The notes under the pieces: generated by a model
Database searches by the model: none
The model's input: the letters and a program-made list of their open reading frames with translations, nothing else
Told to the model about the DNA's origin: nothing
In this document: one piece after another, positions 11,222 to 21,361 of the stretch
Numbering within the stretch: position 1 is the first letter of the stretch
How the letters are laid out: each line of letters starts with the position of its first letter
Position numbers and translations under genes: made by a program
Assembly: GCA_026225555.1 (NCBI GenBank)
Contig: JAMFSY010000146.1
Location: 1 to 64,000, forward strand
DNA: 64,000 nucleotides
Direction of reading: 5' to 3'
Source: Methylacidiphilales bacterium
GTDB taxonomy: Bacteria > Verrucomicrobiota > Verrucomicrobiia > Methylacidiphilales > UBA1321

Positions 11222-12130
11222 ATGACTCTTCTCGCTTATTCCAAATGGGATATCGTGCCCGTACTCTGTGGGCTCGCGCACTTGGCGTTTGTCCTGACCT
11301 TTTTTGCGATCTTCCCCATCGCCCCGTGGTGGGTGCTGATCGCGATGGGCTTCACCTATTCCGTCAGCATCTCGTGGAATATCAACGGGATCTCCCATAA
11401 TTTCCTCCACAATCCCTATTTCAAATCGCACCTCCTGAACCGTATTTTCAGCTTGGTGGAATCACTTTCCATGGGCTTCTCCCAGACCTTCTACGAGTAC
11501 GTTCACCAGCGTCACCACATGGGAAACAGCGACCGCCCGGACGAAAAAGGCGAAACAATCGACTGGCTTTCCATTTACCGGCATGGCCACGAGGGCGAGG
11601 CGGAAAATATATGGAGCTACGTGTTCCTCAGCTATTTTCGCGATGATCCCAAGGTCATTTACCGCGAGATTGCGCGCCGGAATCCGTCTGACGCTTTTTG
11701 GGGCGTCTTCGAGATCGTGGCTTTTCTCAGCACCTTTGTCCTCGGCTTCTTCCTGAACTACAAGTTCATGCTCTTTTTCCTGCCCTTTTATTATCTCGGG
11801 CACTGTTTCTCCTATCTGAACGGCTATTATCTCCATTACGGCGGCAATCCTGACAAGCCAATTGCCTGGGGGGTAAGTAGTTACCACAAATTCTACAACT
11901 GGCTCTGGTTCAACAACGGCTACCATGCCGAGCATCATTTCCGCCCCAAGATGCATTGGACCAAGATGGATGAGTTCCATCGCCAGATCGCGGATCAACA
12001 ACGGCGGGAAGGCGTGCGCGTCATTCAGCCGCCTCATGCGCTCGGATTTCTCGATCCGAACCTGCCGGAAAAGAGCCGCCCTCTCGTGGTGGGGATGGAA
12101 GCCAACTCGAGCCCGGTGGCGGCCGAATAA
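11222..12130 (+). CDS. Fatty acid desaturase-family membrane enzyme (first of two)
   Basis: This 302-residue diiron membrane enzyme has the three histidine boxes of the family: SHNFLHN near residue 60, VHQRHHMGN near 95 and NGYHAEHHF near 240, with hydrophobic segments between. Members insert double bonds into, or hydroxylate, acyl chains of membrane lipids. It is clearly paralogous to 14623-15582 (shared blocks FNNGYHAEHHFRPKMHWTKM and PWWVLI.MGFTYS). It opens a run of same-direction genes that looks like a lipid-modification cluster. The substrate cannot be told from the sequence. Confidence 0.88.
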   Translation: MTLLAYSKWDIVPVLCGLAHLAFVLTFFAIFPIAPWWVLIAMGFTYSVSISWNINGISHNFLHNPYFKSHLLNRIFSLVESLSMGFSQTFYEYVHQRHHMGNSDRPDEKGETIDWLSIYRHGHEGEAENIWSYVFLSYFRDDPKVIYREIARRNPSDAFWGVFEIVAFLSTFVLGFFLNYKFMLFFLPFYYLGHCFSYLNGYYLHYGGNPDKPIAWGVSSYHKFYNWLWFNNGYHAEHHFRPKMHWTKMDEFHRQIADQQRREGVRVIQPPHALGFLDPNLPEKSRPLVVGMEANSSPVAAE

Positions 12131-12283
12131 CTTGAGACAACGGGGAATCATGGATGCTTTCAAGACCAGCCCGAAGCTTGTTGCCTTGGCTCAAACCTTT
12201 GCCCTGTTCAAATCGTAACGTCCTGAATTATCATGCTCGAAATCTCCTGTCGAAATAAGTAACGAGCTTTTCCCTTTCTACCC

Positions 12284-13543
12284 ATGCACAAGGAAATTTA
12301 CCTGCCTCCTTCCGCAACCTATTCCGACATTGGGCTTCAGCTTGATGCCGGTGCGCAGAAGGTTGCGGAGAGTGCGGCGCCCATCTCGGTGGCGACCTCC
12401 TTTGGCCGGGCCATCGTGGTGGAGCGGATTTCCGAAGCCGATGCGGAAGCCTGGGCCGCCGGCCTCCAGCATGAAGCCAACGATCATCGCTATTACGAGC
12501 TGACCCACGACTCGCTCGGGCACCAGTTCGATCATCGCTATCTGATCCTCAAGGACCAGACCGGGACGACCCGCGCGATCCAGCCCTTTCTCGTCGTGAA
12601 GCAGGATCTGGTCACCGGCATGCCCGAACCAGTGCGCCGCCTCCTCACCCGCATCCGCCAGCGTTTCCCCTCCGCGCTGGTCATGCGCATGCTCATGATT
12701 GGCTGCTCGGCGGGCGAGGGACATCTCGTCCGGGACCGCACCACAGGCGGTGTGGAATGGGTCGCCCAAGCCCTGCGCGAGGCACTTCATCCGGTGGCCA
12801 ATGCCCTCGGCGCCCGCATGGTCGTGTTCAAGGATTTCCCCCGGAGCTATCGCACGCCGCTGCGGCATCTGCTCAAGGCCGGTTACGCCCGCGTGCCCAG
12901 CATGCCCGGCTCAAAGCTCGAGCTCGATTTCCAGGATTTTGAGGAATACCTCACGAAAAAGCTCAGCCACAAGACGCGTAAGAATCTTCGCCAGAAATAC
13001 CGCAAGGCTGCGGCCGGAGCGGAGCTGAAGATGGAAGTCGTTTCCGACATCGCCCCGTACATCGACGAGGTTTTCCCACTTTACCAGCAGGTGCTCGAGC
13101 GCTCGCGCTACAAGTTCGAGGAGCTGACCAAATCCTACTTCGTGCATCTCGGCCGGCGCATGAACGACCGCGCCATCTTCTTCATCTGGCGCGAGAACGG
13201 CCGCGCCGTGGCGTTCAGCTCCTGCGTCTGTCACGAGGGCATCCTGCGCGATCATTATATCGGTCTCGACTACGGCGTGGCCCTCGAGCATCACCTCTAT
13301 TTTGTCACCTTCCGGGACATCGTGGCCTGGGCGCTCGCGAACGGATTCAAGAACTACTACAGCGCGCCGCTCAACTACGAGCCGAAGTACCACCTGCGGC
13401 ACGACCTCGCGCCGCTCGATCTTTACGTCCGCACCACCTGGCGCTGGCTCAACCCGCTCTTCCGCGTCATCGTCCCCTACCTCGAGCCGACCCGCTACGA
13501 CCCGATGATCCGCCGCTTCGCCAATGCCCACGAGTTGTGGTAA
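12284..13543 (+). CDS. FemAB/GNAT-like N-acyltransferase
   Basis: This 419-residue soluble protein resembles the GNAT 'BioF2-like/FemAB' group in its second half: a basic segment (KLSHKTRKNLRQKYRKA, about 225-241), then LYQQVLERSRYKFEEL, RRMNDRAIFFIWRENGRAVAF and the closing HYIGLDYG... NYYSAPLNYEPK. Members transfer acyl or aminoacyl groups to amines. It lies between the first desaturase and the arginase-fold gene. In this context, N-acylation of a lipid or amino-acid headgroup is a reasonable inference, but unproven. Confidence 0.75.
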   Translation: MHKEIYLPPSATYSDIGLQLDAGAQKVAESAAPISVATSFGRAIVVERISEADAEAWAAGLQHEANDHRYYELTHDSLGHQFDHRYLILKDQTGTTRAIQPFLVVKQDLVTGMPEPVRRLLTRIRQRFPSALVMRMLMIGCSAGEGHLVRDRTTGGVEWVAQALREALHPVANALGARMVVFKDFPRSYRTPLRHLLKAGYARVPSMPGSKLELDFQDFEEYLTKKLSHKTRKNLRQKYRKAAAGAELKMEVVSDIAPYIDEVFPLYQQVLERSRYKFEELTKSYFVHLGRRMNDRAIFFIWRENGRAVAFSSCVCHEGILRDHYIGLDYGVALEHHLYFVTFRDIVAWALANGFKNYYSAPLNYEPKYHLRHDLAPLDLYVRTTWRWLNPLFRVIVPYLEPTRYDPMIRRFANAHELW

Positions 13544-13582
13544 GGCGCGGCTTGATCTCGCTCATCCGGGGTTTTAATCATT

Positions 13583-13687
13583 CCGTCATCCTGAGCTTGT
13601 CGAAGGATCAGCTTCCGGAAAATAGACACTTTCAGGCAACGTGTGCGCCTACCGGGTGCTGATCCTTCGACAAGCTCAGGATGACGG
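13583..13687. repeat. Dispersed palindromic repeat, copy 1
   Basis: Perfect 30-base inverted arms at 13583-13612 and 13658-13687 with a 45-base centre. The arm core is GTCATCCTGAGCTTGTCGAA, found again at 29971, 31838, 37324 and 46664. The right arm ends only 9 bases before the next start codon, so the hairpin could influence translation or transcription of that gene. Confidence 0.9.
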
Positions 13688-13696
13688 AGAAAAGCC

Positions 13697-14587
13697 ATGA
13701 GCCATGATTCCCACGCCCAAGTCTGGTTCCAGACCGATGACGCCTGGGATTTTTTGTCCAGCGAGCAGCGGCGCGGCCTGACGCCCATCGATGTCCGTGA
13801 ACTGGCGCGGACGTTGCGCTTCATCACTTCGGCCCGCCGGATCGAGAGATTTGCCGCGCGGTATGCGGCGCAATTCCGGCTCTTCACCCTTTTTGGTTCC
13901 GGCGATTTCCATCATCTTAGCGGCGTCTGGACGCGCCAGTTCACGGAGCCGTTTGTCATTCTTTCCTTCGACAATCATCCCGATTGGGACGTCCGTCCGC
14001 CGCGCTGGTCATGCGGCGCATGGATCAATCGCGCGCTGGAAAACCCGCACGTTCAGGGCGTTAGCATCTGGGGCTGCGGCAATTTCGAATGCACCTTTCC
14101 GGCCAATCTCACCGGCAATCGCACCGCCGCGCGCGAAGGCCGACTCCTCGTCCACCCCTGGGTGCAACCGGGAAAAAAGTTTCCCGCCTGGCTCTGTCCC
14201 CTGACAATGGAAACATGGAGGTCCCAATTTCTCGGCTGGCTGGAAAGCATCCAAACGCGAAAAATCTACGTCACGATCGACATGGATTGCCTCCGCTCCG
14301 ACCAGGCCCTCACCAATTGGGAAAGTGGCCGCTTCACGGTCGACGATCTCGTTTGGGCGTTGGGCCGGGTGCGGGAAAAAGCGGAGATTTTAGGCGGCGA
14401 TCTTTGTGGCGCGTGGTCCCAACCTGAATACGCCTCCACCTTCCAAAAGCTCGCCGGTTGGTTCGATCATCCGACGGCGAAGTCTTTCCCGCCGAGCGAA
14501 TTAGCCGATAAAAATGGGGCCGTCTTCGAGCAACTTTGGCCCGCCCTAACCGGACGCCCCTTTGGGGGAGGTGGAATAGGGCTTTGA
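13697..14587 (+). CDS. Arginase/deacetylase-fold metal hydrolase (UPF0489-like)
   Basis: This 296-residue protein carries spaced metal-ligand motifs like those of the arginase superfamily: GSGDFHH (about residue 74), SFDNHPDWD (about 92) in place of DAHxD, and TIDMDCL (about 194) in place of SxDxD. The arginase motifs are diverged, so the substrate may not be arginine. Its position among desaturases and a GNAT-like transferase suggests a role in making an amine-containing lipid, for example by supplying or trimming an amino-acid headgroup; this is inference. GAGAAAAG lies just before the ATG. Confidence 0.7.
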   Translation: MSHDSHAQVWFQTDDAWDFLSSEQRRGLTPIDVRELARTLRFITSARRIERFAARYAAQFRLFTLFGSGDFHHLSGVWTRQFTEPFVILSFDNHPDWDVRPPRWSCGAWINRALENPHVQGVSIWGCGNFECTFPANLTGNRTAAREGRLLVHPWVQPGKKFPAWLCPLTMETWRSQFLGWLESIQTRKIYVTIDMDCLRSDQALTNWESGRFTVDDLVWALGRVREKAEILGGDLCGAWSQPEYASTFQKLAGWFDHPTAKSFPPSELADKNGAVFEQLWPALTGRPFGGGGIGL

Positions 14588-14622
14588 TTTTCCGCCCATC
14601 GTCATCTAATATTTCTCTGACC

Positions 14623-15582
14623 ATGCAGCCCATCAGCAAGAAAAAATCGAACGGTTTCTTTGCCTACACCGCTTGGGACGCGCTTCCCGCACTCGGCGGC
14701 CTGCTCAACTGTCTCTTCGTCATTCTTTTTTACGTCGCCTTCGCCTACTGGCGCGCGCCGTGGTGGGTGCTCATCTGCATGGGCTTCACCTATTCCTTCA
14801 GCATCGGGTGGAACATCAATAGTGTCTGCCATAATTTCGTCCACAATCCGTTCTTCCGCTGGCCGTTGCTCAACCGGCTTTTTTCGCTGATGCAATCGCT
14901 CGCGCTCGGGTTCTCGCAAGTCTGTTATGACGCCGTCCATTCCCGGCATCATCGCGGCAACAGCGACCGCATCGGCGAGGATGGCGACACCATTGATTGG
15001 GCGTCGATTTACCGACACGGCCATGACGACGATGCCGAGAGTCCCTGGAGCTACACCTTCCTCAGCTACCTGCGCGATGATCCCTTCGCGATCATCCGCG
15101 AACTCAAGACGCGCGACGCCTCCGAAGCGCGTTGGGGTGTGATTGAGATCGTCGGGTTCATGAGCTTCTACATCGCCATGTTTTTCGTGAACTGGAAGTT
15201 CATGCTCTTTTTCATCCCGTTCTATTATTTCGGCCACTGCCTCTCCTATCTCGTTGGCTACTACTTGCACTACGGCGCCGATACCGAGCAGCCGATCGCC
15301 TGGGGCGTGAGCAGCTACAACAAGCTCTACAACTGGGTCTGGTTCAATAACGGCTACCACGCCGAGCATCATTTCCGCCCCAAGATGCATTGGACGAAGA
15401 TGAAGGAATTCCAGCGCCAGATCGCCGCCGACCAGGAGACCGCCGGGGTCCGCGTGATCAAGCCGCCGCACATCCTCGGTTTCCTCGATCCCAGCCTTCC
15501 CGAGACCAGCCGGTCCATCATGGCCGAACGCGCGATCAAGATCGCCAAGGCGCTCGAAGCGCAGGAACTGCAAAAGGCCTGA
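14623..15582 (+). CDS. Fatty acid desaturase-family membrane enzyme (second of two)
   Basis: This 319-residue paralogue of 11222-12130 has the same three His boxes: CHNFVHN, VHSRHHRGN and NGYHAEHHF, and the same hydrophobic pattern. The first box keeps HxxxH, the second HxxHH and the third HxxHH, so the diiron site should be intact. The ATG at 14623 is chosen because the next residues match the paralogue's N-terminal region; an upstream frame extension overlaps nothing meaningful. Two similar but distinct desaturases in one cluster suggest two positions or two acyl chains. Confidence 0.88.
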   Translation: MQPISKKKSNGFFAYTAWDALPALGGLLNCLFVILFYVAFAYWRAPWWVLICMGFTYSFSIGWNINSVCHNFVHNPFFRWPLLNRLFSLMQSLALGFSQVCYDAVHSRHHRGNSDRIGEDGDTIDWASIYRHGHDDDAESPWSYTFLSYLRDDPFAIIRELKTRDASEARWGVIEIVGFMSFYIAMFFVNWKFMLFFIPFYYFGHCLSYLVGYYLHYGADTEQPIAWGVSSYNKLYNWVWFNNGYHAEHHFRPKMHWTKMKEFQRQIAADQETAGVRVIKPPHILGFLDPSLPETSRSIMAERAIKIAKALEAQELQKA

Positions 15583-15682
15583 GTTCCCGGGCGGGTAGGG
15601 CGGACGACGTGGGATATCCTCGTTGCTTCGGGGAAAGCATTCTCTCTCGTCACCTCCGGTGAGTCGTGTAGACTGGTACCTT

Positions 15683-16117
15683 ATGCATGATCGGATTCCC
15701 GCCCCCGCCCTGCCCAAACCGGCACCGGGTCTTTTCTGGAATCCGTATCTCCAGATCTTTCTCACGGTGCTCCTGACCGCCGCCGCGCAGATCCTGCTCA
15801 AGATGGGCGCGGACGGCAGCGCGGCGGATGATTCGGTCGGCAGCTGGCTCGGCATCCGCGAACTCGGCTCGGGCTGGACGTGGCTGGGCATCCTGGCTTT
15901 CGTGGCCAGCTTCGGGGGCTGGCTCTACGCCCTGCGCTTCCTGCCGCTGGGGCTCGCCTTTGCGCTGACCAACGGCGTTCACATCTTCGTTCCGATTGGC
16001 TCCTGGCTTTTTCTCCACGAGAAGATCAGCCTCCTGCGCGGCAGCGGCATCCTGGTCATCATCGCGGGCATTCTCCTCCTCGCGCAATCGGTCGCGAAAG
16101 CGGAGGAACGGGTATGA
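15683..16117 (+). CDS. SMR/EmrE-like half-transporter, partner 1
   Basis: This 144-residue protein has four hydrophobic helices after a proline-rich N terminus, with LTAAAQILLKMG in the first helix, the block typical of SMR/DMT half-transporters such as ArnE/ArnF. LYALRFLPLGLAFALTNGVHIFVPIGS is also typical. Its stop overlaps the start of the next gene (ATGA), implying coupled translation and a heterodimer. ArnE/ArnF-type pairs flip lipid-linked sugars, which fits a lipid-modification cluster, but drug or metabolite export is possible. Confidence 0.82.
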   Translation: MHDRIPAPALPKPAPGLFWNPYLQIFLTVLLTAAAQILLKMGADGSAADDSVGSWLGIRELGSGWTWLGILAFVASFGGWLYALRFLPLGLAFALTNGVHIFVPIGSWLFLHEKISLLRGSGILVIIAGILLLAQSVAKAEERV

Positions 16118-16458
16118 ACCTCACGGCCTGGGGCCTGGTCTTCATTTCCCAACTGGCGCTGGTCGCCGGACAGATCTTTCTCAAGCGGGCCATGTCCCGC
16201 CGCGAACTCGGGGAGGAAAAAGCGCGGGGCTGGATCGAGCAGCTCATCATCGGTATCGCGGCCATGACCATCTGGTTCCTTCTCTGGCTCGGGGCCATGC
16301 ACCAGGTCGAGCTCAGCAAGCTCATGCCGCTGGAGGGAATCAGCCCCCTGCTCATCGTGCTCGGCGCGGCGGCCTTTCTGGGTGAACGCCTGAACGGGCG
16401 CGGCTGGGCCGGGGTCGGGCTCACCTGCCTGGGCGTCCTGCTCGTCTCGGTCAGTTAA
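16114..16458 (+). CDS. SMR/EmrE-like half-transporter, partner 2
   Basis: This 114-residue protein has four hydrophobic helices; the first has the ALVAGQIFLKRAMSR block of the same family as partner 1. The start ATG overlaps the partner's TGA by four bases. Paired small half-transporters usually work as antiparallel or heteromeric dimers. The helix with LSKLMPLEGISPLLIVLGA corresponds to the substrate-binding half. It is the last gene of the run beginning at 11222. Confidence 0.82.
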   Translation: MNLTAWGLVFISQLALVAGQIFLKRAMSRRELGEEKARGWIEQLIIGIAAMTIWFLLWLGAMHQVELSKLMPLEGISPLLIVLGAAAFLGERLNGRGWAGVGLTCLGVLLVSVS

Positions 16459-16503: not shown

Positions 16504-18216
16504 ATGAATCTCCCCAAACTCGGTTCGCTCCTCGCGGCCATTCCTTTCCTCGTGGCGGCGACGTCTCTTTAGGCTGAGGTCAAACTTCCCGCCATCTTCG
16601 GCGATCACATGGTCCTCCAGGAAGACAAGAAGCTTCCCGTCTGGGGCACGGCTGACCCGAGTGAAGCTGTTACCGTCACGGTGGGCAAGGAATCGGCCAA
16701 GGCCACAGCGGATGCCGCCGGTAAATGGCGGGTCGATCTCGCGCCCTTGCCCACGAACGCGACTCCGGTCGTCGTGACTGTGGCGGGAAAAACCAATACG
16801 GTGACGTTCAACGATGTTCTCATCGGCGACGTCTGGATCTGTTCCGGTCAGTCGAACATGGAATTCGGTCTCGGCGGCGGGAAGTTCGGTTTCGGCGGCG
16901 CGCACAATGCGGCGACGGTTCTTCCCCAGGCCAACGATCCGCAGTTAAGGCTCTTTCTCGTGGCCCGGAAGACCTCGCTCGATCCGGTGGATGATGTGGT
17001 TGGACAATGGCAGCTTTGCACACCGGAGACCGTCGGAAAGTTTTCCGCTGTCGGCTATTTCTTCGGACGCGATTTGCGGCAGGAGTTGAAGAAGCCAATT
17101 GGCCTGATCGGCACCTACTGGGGTGGCACGCCCGCCCAAGCCTGGACCAGCCTTTCCGGGTTGCAAAAGGAACCGACGTTGAAGAACTACGTCGATGCCT
17201 ACGATAAAACCAAAGCCGCTTTCCCTAAGCTCTCCGCCGACTACCCGGCCAAATTGGCCGCTTACAAAGCCGCCGCTCCCGCGTGGGAACAGGGAGAAGG
17301 CGTGGCTTACAAGGCTGCCGTTTCCGAATGGGAAGCCGCCTCCAAGAAAGCGCTGACCGCCGGCCTGCAGCCGCCTCCGCGTCCACCTGCCCCCAAGTCG
17401 ATGCCGCACCTGCCTCCGTCTCCGGACGGCGGCCCGAACGCGCCGACCACTTTGTACAACGGAATGATTGCGCCCCTTGTCCCCTTCGCGGTGAAGGGCG
17501 CCATCTGGTACCAAGGTGAAAGCAACTCGGGCCATGCGGCGGAATACCGGACTCTGTTCCCCGCCATGATCAGCGATTGGCGCGAGAAATGGGGCCAAGG
17601 CAATTTCCCCTTTCTCTACGTGCAACTGGCCAGCTTCAATTCCGGCAAGGAACAGAACTGGCCTTTCCTCCGTGAAGCGCAGCTCAAGACCCTCTCGTTG
17701 CCAGCGACCGGCATGGCCACCGCAATCGATATCGGCGTGCCGAATAATATCCATCCTCAGGACAAGGAGGACGTCGGGCATCGTCTCGCCCTCGCGGCGC
17801 GGCACGTTGCCTACAGCGAGAAGCTGGTCTATTCCGGCCCCATCTACGACGCGATGAAGGTCGAGGGAAGTGCCATCAGCCTCACGTTTACCCACAATGG
17901 CTCGGGCCTGATTATCGGCAAGGCTCCCTGGGTTGCCACCGGTTTCCCGGCCTTGCCCGGCGATAAACTGGTCGGGTTCGCGGTGGCCGGGGCGGATAAA
18001 AATTGGATCCCCGCCGAAGCCAAAATCATGGGCGATAAGGTCGTCGTCTCGAGTGCTCAAGTGGCGAGTCCCGTCGCTGTGCGCTATGGTTGGGCCAATA
18101 ACGCGGGAGGAAACCTCTACAACAAGGAAGGCCTGCCCGCTTCTTCGTTCCGCACCGACGATTGGTCCGATCCCGTGGCGGAAGGGCTCGTTCCCCCGCC
18201 GCCGCCGAAGAAATAA
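16504..18216 (+). pseudogene. Sialate O-acetylesterase-like SGNH hydrolase interrupted by amber codon
   Basis: Reading from the ATG at 16504 gives a signal peptide (MNLPKLGSLLAAIPFLVAA) that meets an in-frame TAG at 16570-16572, exactly where the mature protein would begin (AEVKLPAIFGDHMVLQ). Beyond it the frame is open to 18216. The mature part has the SGNH blocks ICSGQSNMEF, GAIWYQGESN and NNIHPQDK, so the enzyme itself looks intact. Such proteins deacetylate sugars outside the cell. TAG differs from CAG by one base. If the stop is real, the protein is not exported unless read through; an ATG at 16609 could give a cytoplasmic form. Confidence 0.8.
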
Positions 18217-18220
18217 GTCC

Positions 18221-21200
18221 TTATTTCGCGTAGCTCGCGCTCGGTTCGTCCGAGCGCGGGTCCTCCAATGGGGGAGGTGAGGCGAGGCCATCGTCATCGT
18301 CATCCTCGCGCTCGCCTTCCCAGCGGGCGAAGAGGCTGTAGGCGCAAGGCACGACGAAAAGCGTGAAGCAGGTGGAAACGAAAATACCGCCGATGACCGC
18401 CGTGGCCATCGGCATGCGCGTCTCCGAGCCCGGCCCGAAACCGAGCGCGGAAGGAATCGCCGACGAGATCGTCGCGAGCGACGTCATCAGGATGGGGCGC
18501 AACCGGATCGGGCATGCATCGAGCAGCGCGGCGCGGAGCGGACGTTTGTCTTCCGTGCGAACATGGTTGGTGAATTCAACCAGCAGGATCGAGTTTTTCT
18601 TCGCGATGCCCATCAGCAGGATGATGCCGATCATGCTGAACATATTGAGCGACTCGTTCGTCGCCCATAGCGCCAGCAGCGCGCCGGTCAGGCTGAACGG
18701 CAGCGCCAGCAGCACCGAGATCGGCTGGAGGAAGCTGTCGAATTGGGTCGCCAGGATCATGTACGCCACCGCGATGCCGAGGATCAGCGCGAACCAAAGA
18801 CTGTTGAACGCTCCCTTGTAGCCCGAGGCGCCGCCCTCGAGGAAAAAGTCGTAACCGGGCGGCAACAGCGGGCGGGCGATCTTCTCCGCCAGGGCCAGCA
18901 CCGCGGCTTGGGATGCGCCGGGCGCAAGATTGCCCGTGACGGAAATGGCGCGTTGCCGATCGATGCGGGCCACGGTTTGCAGGGTGGGCCGCACTTGGAT
19001 TTTTGTGACATCGGAGAGGGGAATCAACTCGCCGTATTCATTGCGGACGTCGAGCTTCTGAATGTCGCTCGGCAGGCCGCGTTCCAGGCCTTGCAGCCGC
19101 ATGTTCACATCGTAGCGATGCCCGCCACTGGTGAACTTCCCGTCCTGCATGCCGCCGATGGCGACGTTGACCGTCTGCGCGATGGCATCCACCGAAACAC
19201 CGCGCTCACCCGCCGCCACGCGATCGGGCGTGATCTGTGCCTCCGGCATGCCCGACCGGTAATTGGTGTTCAAATCGGTCACGAGCCCGGTGGCGTTGAG
19301 CTGATTCACCACCTGGTCCACGATGGAGCTCAGTTTGTCGTAATCGGTGCCGCGGATATTGAATGCGATCGGTGAGGGCTGGCCCGAGGAAAGGCCGCGT
19401 CCGGAAAGATCCCCGAACCAGATGTGGACCATGTCCTTCAACTCGGGCATGGCCGTCAGGTCCTGGCGGAACTGGAGGATCATGTCGGCCTGGCTGATTT
19501 TACGCTTCGATTTATCGACGAGCACCACGTCGAAGTTTCCAATGTTGGCGCGGCTCCCGTCACCGGTGCTGGAAACCTCGTGGGCCACTTCCGGGTGGGA
19601 ACGGATATATTGTTCGACCACGCGGACCCGCTGATCCATCGCGTAGATGGAGGTGCCCATCGGCGCTTCGATCCCGATGTGGAAGAAGTTCTGGTCCTGC
19701 GGCGGAACAAATTCCTGCCGCAAAAAGGAAACGGCGAAAAGCGAAAGCGCAAACAGCGCGGTCGAACCGGTCAGCACCAACAAGCGCCGGTCGAGCGCCC
19801 AGTCGAGCGCGGAGCGATAGGCGCCGGTCAGCTTGCGGAAGAGCTGGTCTGAATGCCGGGTCAGAAAGCCGGTTTTGTTGGCTCGGCTCAGCATCTTTGA
19901 GCAGCGCATCGGCGTCAGCGTGATCGACTCGAGCAGCGAGAAGAGCACCGCCACGGTCATCGTCACCGAAAACTGGAAGAAGAAGCGGCCGATCACCCCT
20001 TCCATGAAGGCCACGGGAATAAAGATCGCCACCACGGCGAGGGTCGCCGCAATGGCCGCGAAAGTAATTTCGCGCGCGCCATCCCGCGCCGCTTTCTTCC
20101 GGTTCTTGCCCATGTCGAAGTGCCGGACAATGTTTTCCAGCACCATGATGGCATCGTCCACCACGATGCCGATGGCCAGCGCCAGCGCGAGCAGCGTGAA
20201 CAGGTTCAGCGTGAAGTGCAGGAAGTAGAGCGCCATGAACGCGCCGATGACCGAGGTGGGAATCGCGATCAGCACGTTCAGCGCGGAGCTCCACGTGCCG
20301 AGGAAAAGAAAGCAGATCACCGAGGTGAGCAGGCCGGCCATGAGCAATTCATGCAGCGTCTGGGCAATCGCCTGCCGCGTGAAGCGGGTGTAGTCGACCA
20401 CGACCTGCGCCTTCATGCCCTTTGGCAGCGCGCCGGTCAGGCTCGCCACTTTGGCCAGCACGTTGTCCGCGACCTGGACTTCGTTGAAGCCGCGCTCCTT
20501 CTTGATGTTGACGACGACCGCCGGTTGATCGTCCGCGCGGACGATGGAGCGCTGGTCGCTCAGGTCGTCCACCACCCGGGCCACGTCGCGGATGTGAATG
20601 TGGGAGTCGTAAATGGAGGAACCGCCGCGGGTCAGGATCAATTCGTCCCCGACCTGCGCGGCGGTCATGCCTTCGCCCATGGTGCGGACGTTGATCTCGT
20701 TCCGCGAATTTTCGAGGTAGCCGCCCGGCGCTTCCTGGTGCTGGTTCTGGATCGCCTGCTCCACGTCGAGCACGGTGAGCTGCCACTTCTTGAGCTTGTC
20801 GTTGTCGATCCAGATGCGGAGCTGGCGGCTGCCGAAGCCGCCGATGCCCACGTCGCCGACGCCCTCCACCGTTTGCAGGGAAGTCTGGAGATATTTATCG
20901 ACGTAATCGGCCATCTCGCGCAAGGGCTGGTCACCGTAAACGACCACGCGGATGATCGGGTCATCCTCGAGGTTATGCTTGTAGATGACGGGCGGAGTGA
21001 CGTCGATGGGGAGGCGGACCTGCTGCACATCGGCCTGCACTTCCTGCAAGGCGGAATCGATGTTTCGGTCGATATCGAAATCGAGCGCGATATTGGCCGA
21101 GCCTTCGCCGACGCTCGACCGCACCTCGCGGACGCCCTCGACCGCGACGACACGCCGCTCGATCGGATCGACCAGTTCACTTTCCAGGACCTCCGGGGCC

Positions 21201-21361
21201 GCGCCGGGCCAGACGACCGAAATGCTCAGGGTCGGGTAGTCGATGTCGGGCATGTAACTGACGCCGAGACGCTGATAGCAGATCAACCCAAAAAGGATGA
21301 TGCCGATCATCAGCATCCAGGCGAAAACAGGCCTTTTGATCGAGAGATCGGCGAGCGTCAT
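18221..21361 (-). CDS. RND efflux transporter, HAE1-like (orphan)
   Basis: This 1046-residue inner-membrane pump has the RND plan: first helix, large periplasmic loop, helices with the charged block GIVVDDAIMVLEN, a second loop and final helices. It is of normal length and ends in an acidic tail (EDDDDDG). No membrane-fusion or outer-membrane partner lies beside it; the fusion protein at 24290-25534 belongs to the other pump. It may share that adaptor or use one elsewhere. Its 3' end nearly abuts the convergent esterase gene (4 bases). Confidence 0.93.
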   Translation of the reverse strand: MTLADLSIKRPVFAWMLMIGIILFGLICYQRLGVSYMPDIDYPTLSISVVWPGAAPEVLESELVDPIERRVVAVEGVREVRSSVGEGSANIALDFDIDRNIDSALQEVQADVQQVRLPIDVTPPVIYKHNLEDDPIIRVVVYGDQPLREMADYVDKYLQTSLQTVEGVGDVGIGGFGSRQLRIWIDNDKLKKWQLTVLDVEQAIQNQHQEAPGGYLENSRNEINVRTMGEGMTAAQVGDELILTRGGSSIYDSHIHIRDVARVVDDLSDQRSIVRADDQPAVVVNIKKERGFNEVQVADNVLAKVASLTGALPKGMKAQVVVDYTRFTRQAIAQTLHELLMAGLLTSVICFLFLGTWSSALNVLIAIPTSVIGAFMALYFLHFTLNLFTLLALALAIGIVVDDAIMVLENIVRHFDMGKNRKKAARDGAREITFAAIAATLAVVAIFIPVAFMEGVIGRFFFQFSVTMTVAVLFSLLESITLTPMRCSKMLSRANKTGFLTRHSDQLFRKLTGAYRSALDWALDRRLLVLTGSTALFALSLFAVSFLRQEFVPPQDQNFFHIGIEAPMGTSIYAMDQRVRVVEQYIRSHPEVAHEVSSTGDGSRANIGNFDVVLVDKSKRKISQADMILQFRQDLTAMPELKDMVHIWFGDLSGRGLSSGQPSPIAFNIRGTDYDKLSSIVDQVVNQLNATGLVTDLNTNYRSGMPEAQITPDRVAAGERGVSVDAIAQTVNVAIGGMQDGKFTSGGHRYDVNMRLQGLERGLPSDIQKLDVRNEYGELIPLSDVTKIQVRPTLQTVARIDRQRAISVTGNLAPGASQAAVLALAEKIARPLLPPGYDFFLEGGASGYKGAFNSLWFALILGIAVAYMILATQFDSFLQPISVLLALPFSLTGALLALWATNESLNMFSMIGIILLMGIAKKNSILLVEFTNHVRTEDKRPLRAALLDACPIRLRPILMTSLATISSAIPSALGFGPGSETRMPMATAVIGGIFVSTCFTLFVVPCAYSLFARWEGEREDDDDDGLASPPPLEDPRSDEPSASYAK

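Follow-up and report, generated by a model that had tools for sequence, protein, structure and literature searches.

What product would require, in one run of same-direction genes, two desaturases, a GNAT-type transferase, an arginase-fold protein and a pair of small half-transporters? The locus that raises this question occupies positions 11222-16458 of a 64,000-nt stretch of DNA (hereafter, the window) from contig JAMFSY010000146.1 of a Methylacidiphilales bacterium (GCA_026225555.1). An earlier note proposed that its six genes could make, desaturate and flip an amine-containing lipid. Modification and flipping fit genes that are conserved together, but assembly of the lipid by these six genes probably does not hold: the amine lipid is probably made by SHC, HpnH, HpnG and HpnO-like genes located elsewhere in the genome. 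We consider it roughly 60% probable that the cluster as a whole tailors and translocates an aminohopanoid, hopanoids being the sterol-like lipids of bacteria.

All six genes exist at the positions given and run in the same direction, as had been claimed; they lie on the forward strand. Their order, read from the sequence and its open reading frames, is D1, T, A, D2, E, F. The only overlapping pair is E/F (4 bases), and the remaining intergenic gaps are 35-153 bp long. Direct reading of the sequence reveals a REP-like inverted repeat (cgtcatcctgagcttgtcgaaggatcag ... ctgatccttcgacaagctcaggatgacg) in the gap between T and A (13575-13690, no strand assigned). Because of this repeat and the size of the gaps, transcription of D1 to F as one operon can be called only likely. 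An RNA family search gave no match in the window. Downstream of F, our reading of the translations identifies a sialate O-acetylesterase-like protein (16609-18216) and an RND efflux pump (18221-21361), neither of which shows any sign of belonging to the module.

A protein search of genome contigs found 120 relatives of A, and synteny was counted in the 42 loci where A is flanked by 3 kb or more of sequence on either side. Both T and E/F are found beside A in 34 of these loci, E/F alone in three, and A stands alone in five. Given these numbers, the association of the genes is not due to chance, and the conserved core, which is spread over Verrucomicrobiota, Nitrosomonadaceae and Phycisphaerales, consists of T, A, E and F. 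The outcome that, according to the earlier note, would speak against its proposal, namely genes that are not conserved together, is thus not what other genomes present. The unit of six that it put forward has to be narrowed, as T, A and E/F stay together and the desaturases are accessory. The commonest layout elsewhere is an A gene facing a T-E-F operon, and the window shows one of several gene orders. Literature searches found no paper on this gene set; the earlier note knew of no described pathway with it. In one contig, recorded as Bacteroidetes bacterium BOG_genome_mining.178, T and A nest inside the clade of the window's genus, which makes a misassigned record name probable.

The likely lipid is indicated by the company that the module keeps. 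A class III aminotransferase adjoins D1 relatives in Verrucomicrobia, Phycisphaerales and Proteobacteria-labelled contigs. Among 388 Verrucomicrobiota genomes, SHC is present in 19, the aminotransferase in 17 and a strong match to A in five (a sixth genome, with a weak and distant match, was left out), and these sets are nested: all five A carriers fall within the 17 aminotransferase genomes, all of which fall within the 19 with SHC. The chance of finding all five carriers inside 17 of 388 genomes is 9e-8 for a random draw that ignores kinship, the five genomes spanning four families. The aminotransferase is present in 22 of 27 A-bearing genomes, and those of the misses whose completeness is known are 65-83% complete. 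Every A-bearing genome that was tested for SHC has it, one of them by a weak match only. Most SHC genomes, however, are without A (14 of the 19 in the Verrucomicrobiota sample), and the module is therefore a tailoring option and not a part of core hopanoid synthesis.

The strongest evidence for the hopanoid connection is physical linkage between the module and hpn genes, which occurs in three phyla. One Phycisphaerales contig has the order D-A-F-E-T-SHC-aminotransferase-HpnN, and a contig of a second genome additionally contains HpnC, an HpnD-like gene and HpnE. In two Nitrosomonadaceae genomes the four core genes lie directly upstream of SHC and HpnG (A-F-E-T-SHC-HpnG and T-E-F-A-SHC-HpnG), a Spartobacteria contig has the order HpnH-SHC-A-F-E, and Humisphaera has SHC-D-aminotransferase-HpnN. 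The best profile match of the companion aminotransferase is PigE, and there is no HpnO model among its NCBIfam matches. Because of its co-occurrence with SHC and its linkage to hpn genes, the aminotransferase is nevertheless probably HpnO, and a generic fatty-amine route suggested by its likeness to PigE was dropped in favor of this reading. HpnO converts ribosylhopane to 35-aminobacteriohopanetriol (PMC12583986). In the window genome, the link between the module and hopanoids is one of co-occurrence: there are no hpn genes among the six, and they are present elsewhere, with SHC on contig C18 (698.6 bits against a cut-off of 431.1) followed by an HpnG-like gene (a weak match, below cut-off), HpnH on contig C39 (62% identity to Nitrosovibrio HpnH) and an aminotransferase of this kind on contig C27 (49% identity). 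We are reasonably confident that the substrate of the module is an aminohopanoid.

In the pathway that we propose, the SHC, HpnH, HpnG and HpnO-like genes located elsewhere would supply aminobacteriohopanetriol, and T would attach to its C-35 amine either an acyl group or an aminoacyl group taken from aminoacyl-tRNA. A, as a metal hydrolase, would trim or remove a substituent of the head group, D1 and D2 would desaturate or oxidise either the hopanoid itself or the acyl group that it carries, and E and F, as a heterodimer of the ArnE/ArnF type, would flip the product across to the outer face. The earlier description of T (419 aa, 12284-13543, forward strand) as a FemAB/GNAT-like transferase is borne out by its scores, which exceed the cut-offs for both PF04339 FemAB_like (38.6 bits, cut-off 27) and PF13480 Acetyltransf_6 (38.8 bits, cut-off 22), and by its AlphaFold model (pLDDT 90), which has the tandem GNAT fold of FemX/MprF-type aminoacyltransferases. 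In a Foldseek search the best solved-structure matches of this model were FemX (7z6a, E = 2e-12), followed by an A-PGS of the MprF type (4v34, E = 1.5e-10); N-myristoyltransferase and Eis-type enzymes ranked lower. It is because of this predicted fold that T may be regarded as an (amino)acyltransferase of aminobacteriohopanetriol, and whether it is indeed an N-(amino)acyltransferase acting on the aminohopanoid amine seems to us to fall just short of an even bet. That the transferred group is a tRNA-borne aminoacyl rather than an acyl is doubtful. Lipids of both kinds are known: N-tryptophanyl, N-ornithinyl and N-phenylalanyl aminotriols on the one hand (PMC12583986) and N-acylaminotriols, including N-palmitoyl and N-palmitoleoyl aminotriols, on the other (PMC8537080). 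In the literature searched, we found no gene or enzyme assigned to either kind, and for N-substitution of aminotriol a transferase with a predicted FemX/MprF-like fold, encoded next to SHC and the probable HpnO, suggests itself as a candidate. Five Udaeobacter-like contigs (L026, L027, L030, L031 and L054) carry two tandem T paralogues upstream of E/F, with about 42% and 50% identity to T of the window, an arrangement that suggests successive additions or two donors.

The two desaturases, D1 (302 aa, 11222-12130) and D2 (14623-15582, with its ATG at 14623), both on the forward strand, match PF00487 FA_desaturase with 99.4 and 97.7 bits (cut-off 29.7), both have the three His boxes of the fatty acid desaturase/hydroxylase superfamily, and they are 65% identical to each other, so that they are paralogues, as had been noticed. 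The His boxes of D1 (H59..H63, H95..H99 and H235..H239) are invariant in 14 relatives. D2 looks like a recent, genus-level duplicate, since only close relatives of the window genome have it. Relatives of D1 with 57-86% identity occur in 15 of 20 tested A-bearing genomes, and a desaturase is located close to A in seven of the 42 loci. The genes for unsaturated hopanoids have been stated to be unknown (PMC12583986).

It could be that T is an N-acyltransferase dependent on acyl-CoA or acyl-ACP, which makes an N-fatty-acyl aminotriol whose amide-bound fatty acid is desaturated by D1 and D2. The existence of the palmitoyl and palmitoleoyl amides, the occurrence of N-myristoyltransferase, another tandem GNAT protein, among the fold matches of T, and the very presence of desaturases in the cluster are consistent with this view. 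However, the top fold matches of T are aminoacyl-tRNA transferases, the cluster contains no desaturase in Nitrosospira, in Nitrosovibrio or at two other loci, and five of the 20 A-bearing genomes have no D1 relative anywhere. N-acylaminotriols have been reported from Nitrosomonas europaea, but T is present in just five of 125 Nitrosomonadaceae genomes, and it is therefore unlikely that T explains the Nitrosomonas lipids. Taken as a whole, this alternative appears unlikely.

It is also conceivable that the module serves cationic lipids in general, acting on a glycerolipid or on lipid A, and that its proximity to hpn genes reflects a shared lifestyle or neighbourhood chance. A homologous set does exist in Agrobacterium, Rhizobium, Roseomonas, Azospirillum and other Pseudomonadota. 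In the alphaproteobacterial clusters, which have the composition HAD-aminotransferase-arginase-EamA-desaturase-hydrolase-GNAT-EamA, the homologues of A, T, E/F and the desaturase show 30, 25, 37 and 57% identity, respectively, and the Agrobacterium/Rhizobium plasmid sets are accompanied by two-component genes, MipA and, once, EptA and DgkA. SHC was found in none of the 23 genomes with a distant T. The close homologues, in contrast, are nested in genomes with SHC and the aminotransferase and, in three phyla, are physically linked to hpn genes, and the companions of the distant branch (a different aminotransferase, a HAD phosphatase and an alpha/beta hydrolase, besides the two-component genes) set it apart, the phosphatase and the hydrolase being absent from the window cluster. 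The two branches also separate in trees: the hopanoid-linked T proteins form one clade (100/99), and so do the hopanoid-linked A proteins (100/100). Of these trees we use clade supports only and no counts of label changes, since the short loci L218-L235, labelled there as SHC branch, are copies from genomes without SHC. A general cationic-lipid role of the window cluster is thus improbable, and the idea that the alphaproteobacterial clusters represent the same pathway was rejected because the 23 genomes are without SHC. Since the homologues from SHC-less genomes form a branch of their own, we infer that the module type is older or broader than its use with hopanoids, to which it is not intrinsically tied, and that the lipid differs by branch.

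Two variants of the distant set deserve a separate description. On Agrobacterium fabrum plasmid pAt2788a (L122:4638-17873), and also in L120, L121 and L124, a related non-hopanoid cluster comprises a two-component pair and genes for a HAD phosphatase, a class III aminotransferase, an arginase-fold protein, an EamA protein, a desaturase, an alpha/beta hydrolase, a GNAT protein and a second EamA protein; in L122 it is followed by CFA synthase, MipA, phosphoethanolamine-lipid A transferase and diacylglycerol kinase, a gene context that suggests a role in envelope stress or in the response to cationic peptides. A third variant, found in other Pseudomonadota (L249, L250, L251, L252 and L255), has the composition HAD-aminotransferase-GNAT-arginase-EamA plus a DegT aminotransferase with about 52% identity to that of Roseomonas.

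A (296 aa, 13697-14587, forward strand) had been described as an arginase-fold hydrolase. The structure prediction proposed then as a check was run, and the fold stands: the AlphaFold model (pLDDT 89) matches ureohydrolases (agmatinases, arginases and guanidinases) with a Foldseek probability of 1.00 and a TM-score of about 0.5, and all six Mn ligands of these enzymes are kept (H72, D92, H94, D96, D195 and D197, each at least 99% conserved among A relatives). The canonical arginase catalytic residues do not: in a motif alignment whose register is set by sequence only, the positions of the catalytic His141 and of Glu277, which binds the guanidinium of the substrate, are occupied by invariant W109 and G238, and the score against Pfam Arginase (17.2 bits) is below the cut-off of 22. 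As these residues are replaced, arginase activity should not be assumed; with the ligands retained, A is probably a metal hydrolase that acts on another substrate. The fold, the metal ligands and the existence of N-ornithinyl aminotriol (PMC12583986) notwithstanding, it is therefore very improbable that A is a true arginase or agmatinase that supplies ornithine or putrescine for T to couple to a lipid in the style of ornithine lipids, a pathway that was rejected since no cluster protein has a Pfam or NCBIfam match to an OlsB-type acetyltransferase domain. In about 24 Chthoniobacterales loci (L082:6033-7973 and relatives) the neighbour of A encodes a membrane protein roughly 645 aa long.

Returning to aminohopanoid tailoring, A could act after T. 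A tRNA-borne amino acid, once added by T to the amine of aminobacteriohopanetriol, might be remodelled on the lipid by A before flipping by E/F; a conversion of arginyl to ornithinyl would be one example, as ornithine has no tRNA. Such a tRNA-dependent addition followed by remodelling is a long shot; if true, aminoacyl hopanoids would be made in two steps on the lipid itself.

The half-transporters E (144 aa, 15683-16117) and F (114 aa, 16114-16458), both on the forward strand, contain EamA domains (30.9 and 51.1 bits, cut-off 28.2), and the start of F overlaps the stop of E, as is characteristic of paired SMR/EamA half-transporters. Their ArnE/ArnF look, pointed out previously, is a resemblance that does not reach equivalog level, as E scores 36.1 bits against the ArnF model (cut-off 99) and F scores 27.4 bits against the ArnE model (cut-off 92). 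ArnE/ArnF flip the Ara4N-lipid and the membrane domain of MprF flips lysyl-PG; by analogy, the odds that E/F flip the product of T seem to us even.

Bacteriohopanepolyols serve widely as molecular fossils, and aminoacyl-aminotriols, whose known producers are Rhodomicrobium vannielii and Variibacter gotjawalensis, have been on record since 1985. If the tailoring reading is true, it would point to the enzymes for lipids that have since remained without genes, and a gene marker for modified aminohopanoids would follow. Because culturable bacteria such as Nitrosospira multiformis, Nitrosovibrio tenuis Nv1 and Chthoniobacter flavus carry this conserved, hpn-linked set of candidate genes, the question of which enzymes modify aminotriol can be put to a direct test, and A represents a family of putative metal hydrolases with an arginase fold and a different active site.

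Several known systems share parts with the module. In relatives of the window genome it is joined to SHC, HpnG, HpnH, HpnN, HpnC/D/E and the HpnO-like aminotransferase, i.e. to the HpnO branch of hopanoid biosynthesis, but the hpn genes discussed in PMC12583986 do not include T, A, E/F or D. The Ara4N pathway likewise has two small overlapping SMR/EamA half-transporters; the likeness is limited to E/F, since the cluster is without ArnA, B, C, D and T, and an Arn pathway was rejected. Ureohydrolases share their fold and six metal ligands with A but not the catalytic His and the substrate Glu. The FemX/FemAB non-ribosomal aminoacyltransferases provide the best fold matches of T, along with its FemAB_like Pfam match, but T is just 14% identical to them and is found among lipid genes rather than peptidoglycan genes. 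MprF, whose soluble synthase domain has the fold predicted for T, pairs the synthesis of a cationic lipid with its flipping, as we propose for T and E/F. The module differs from MprF in that its flippase would be a separate SMR pair without the MprF membrane domain, the lipid concerned is probably an aminohopanoid, and nothing in MprF corresponds to A or D; what the module may offer is the logic of MprF split into a synthase and a separate flippase and applied to a sterol-like lipid.
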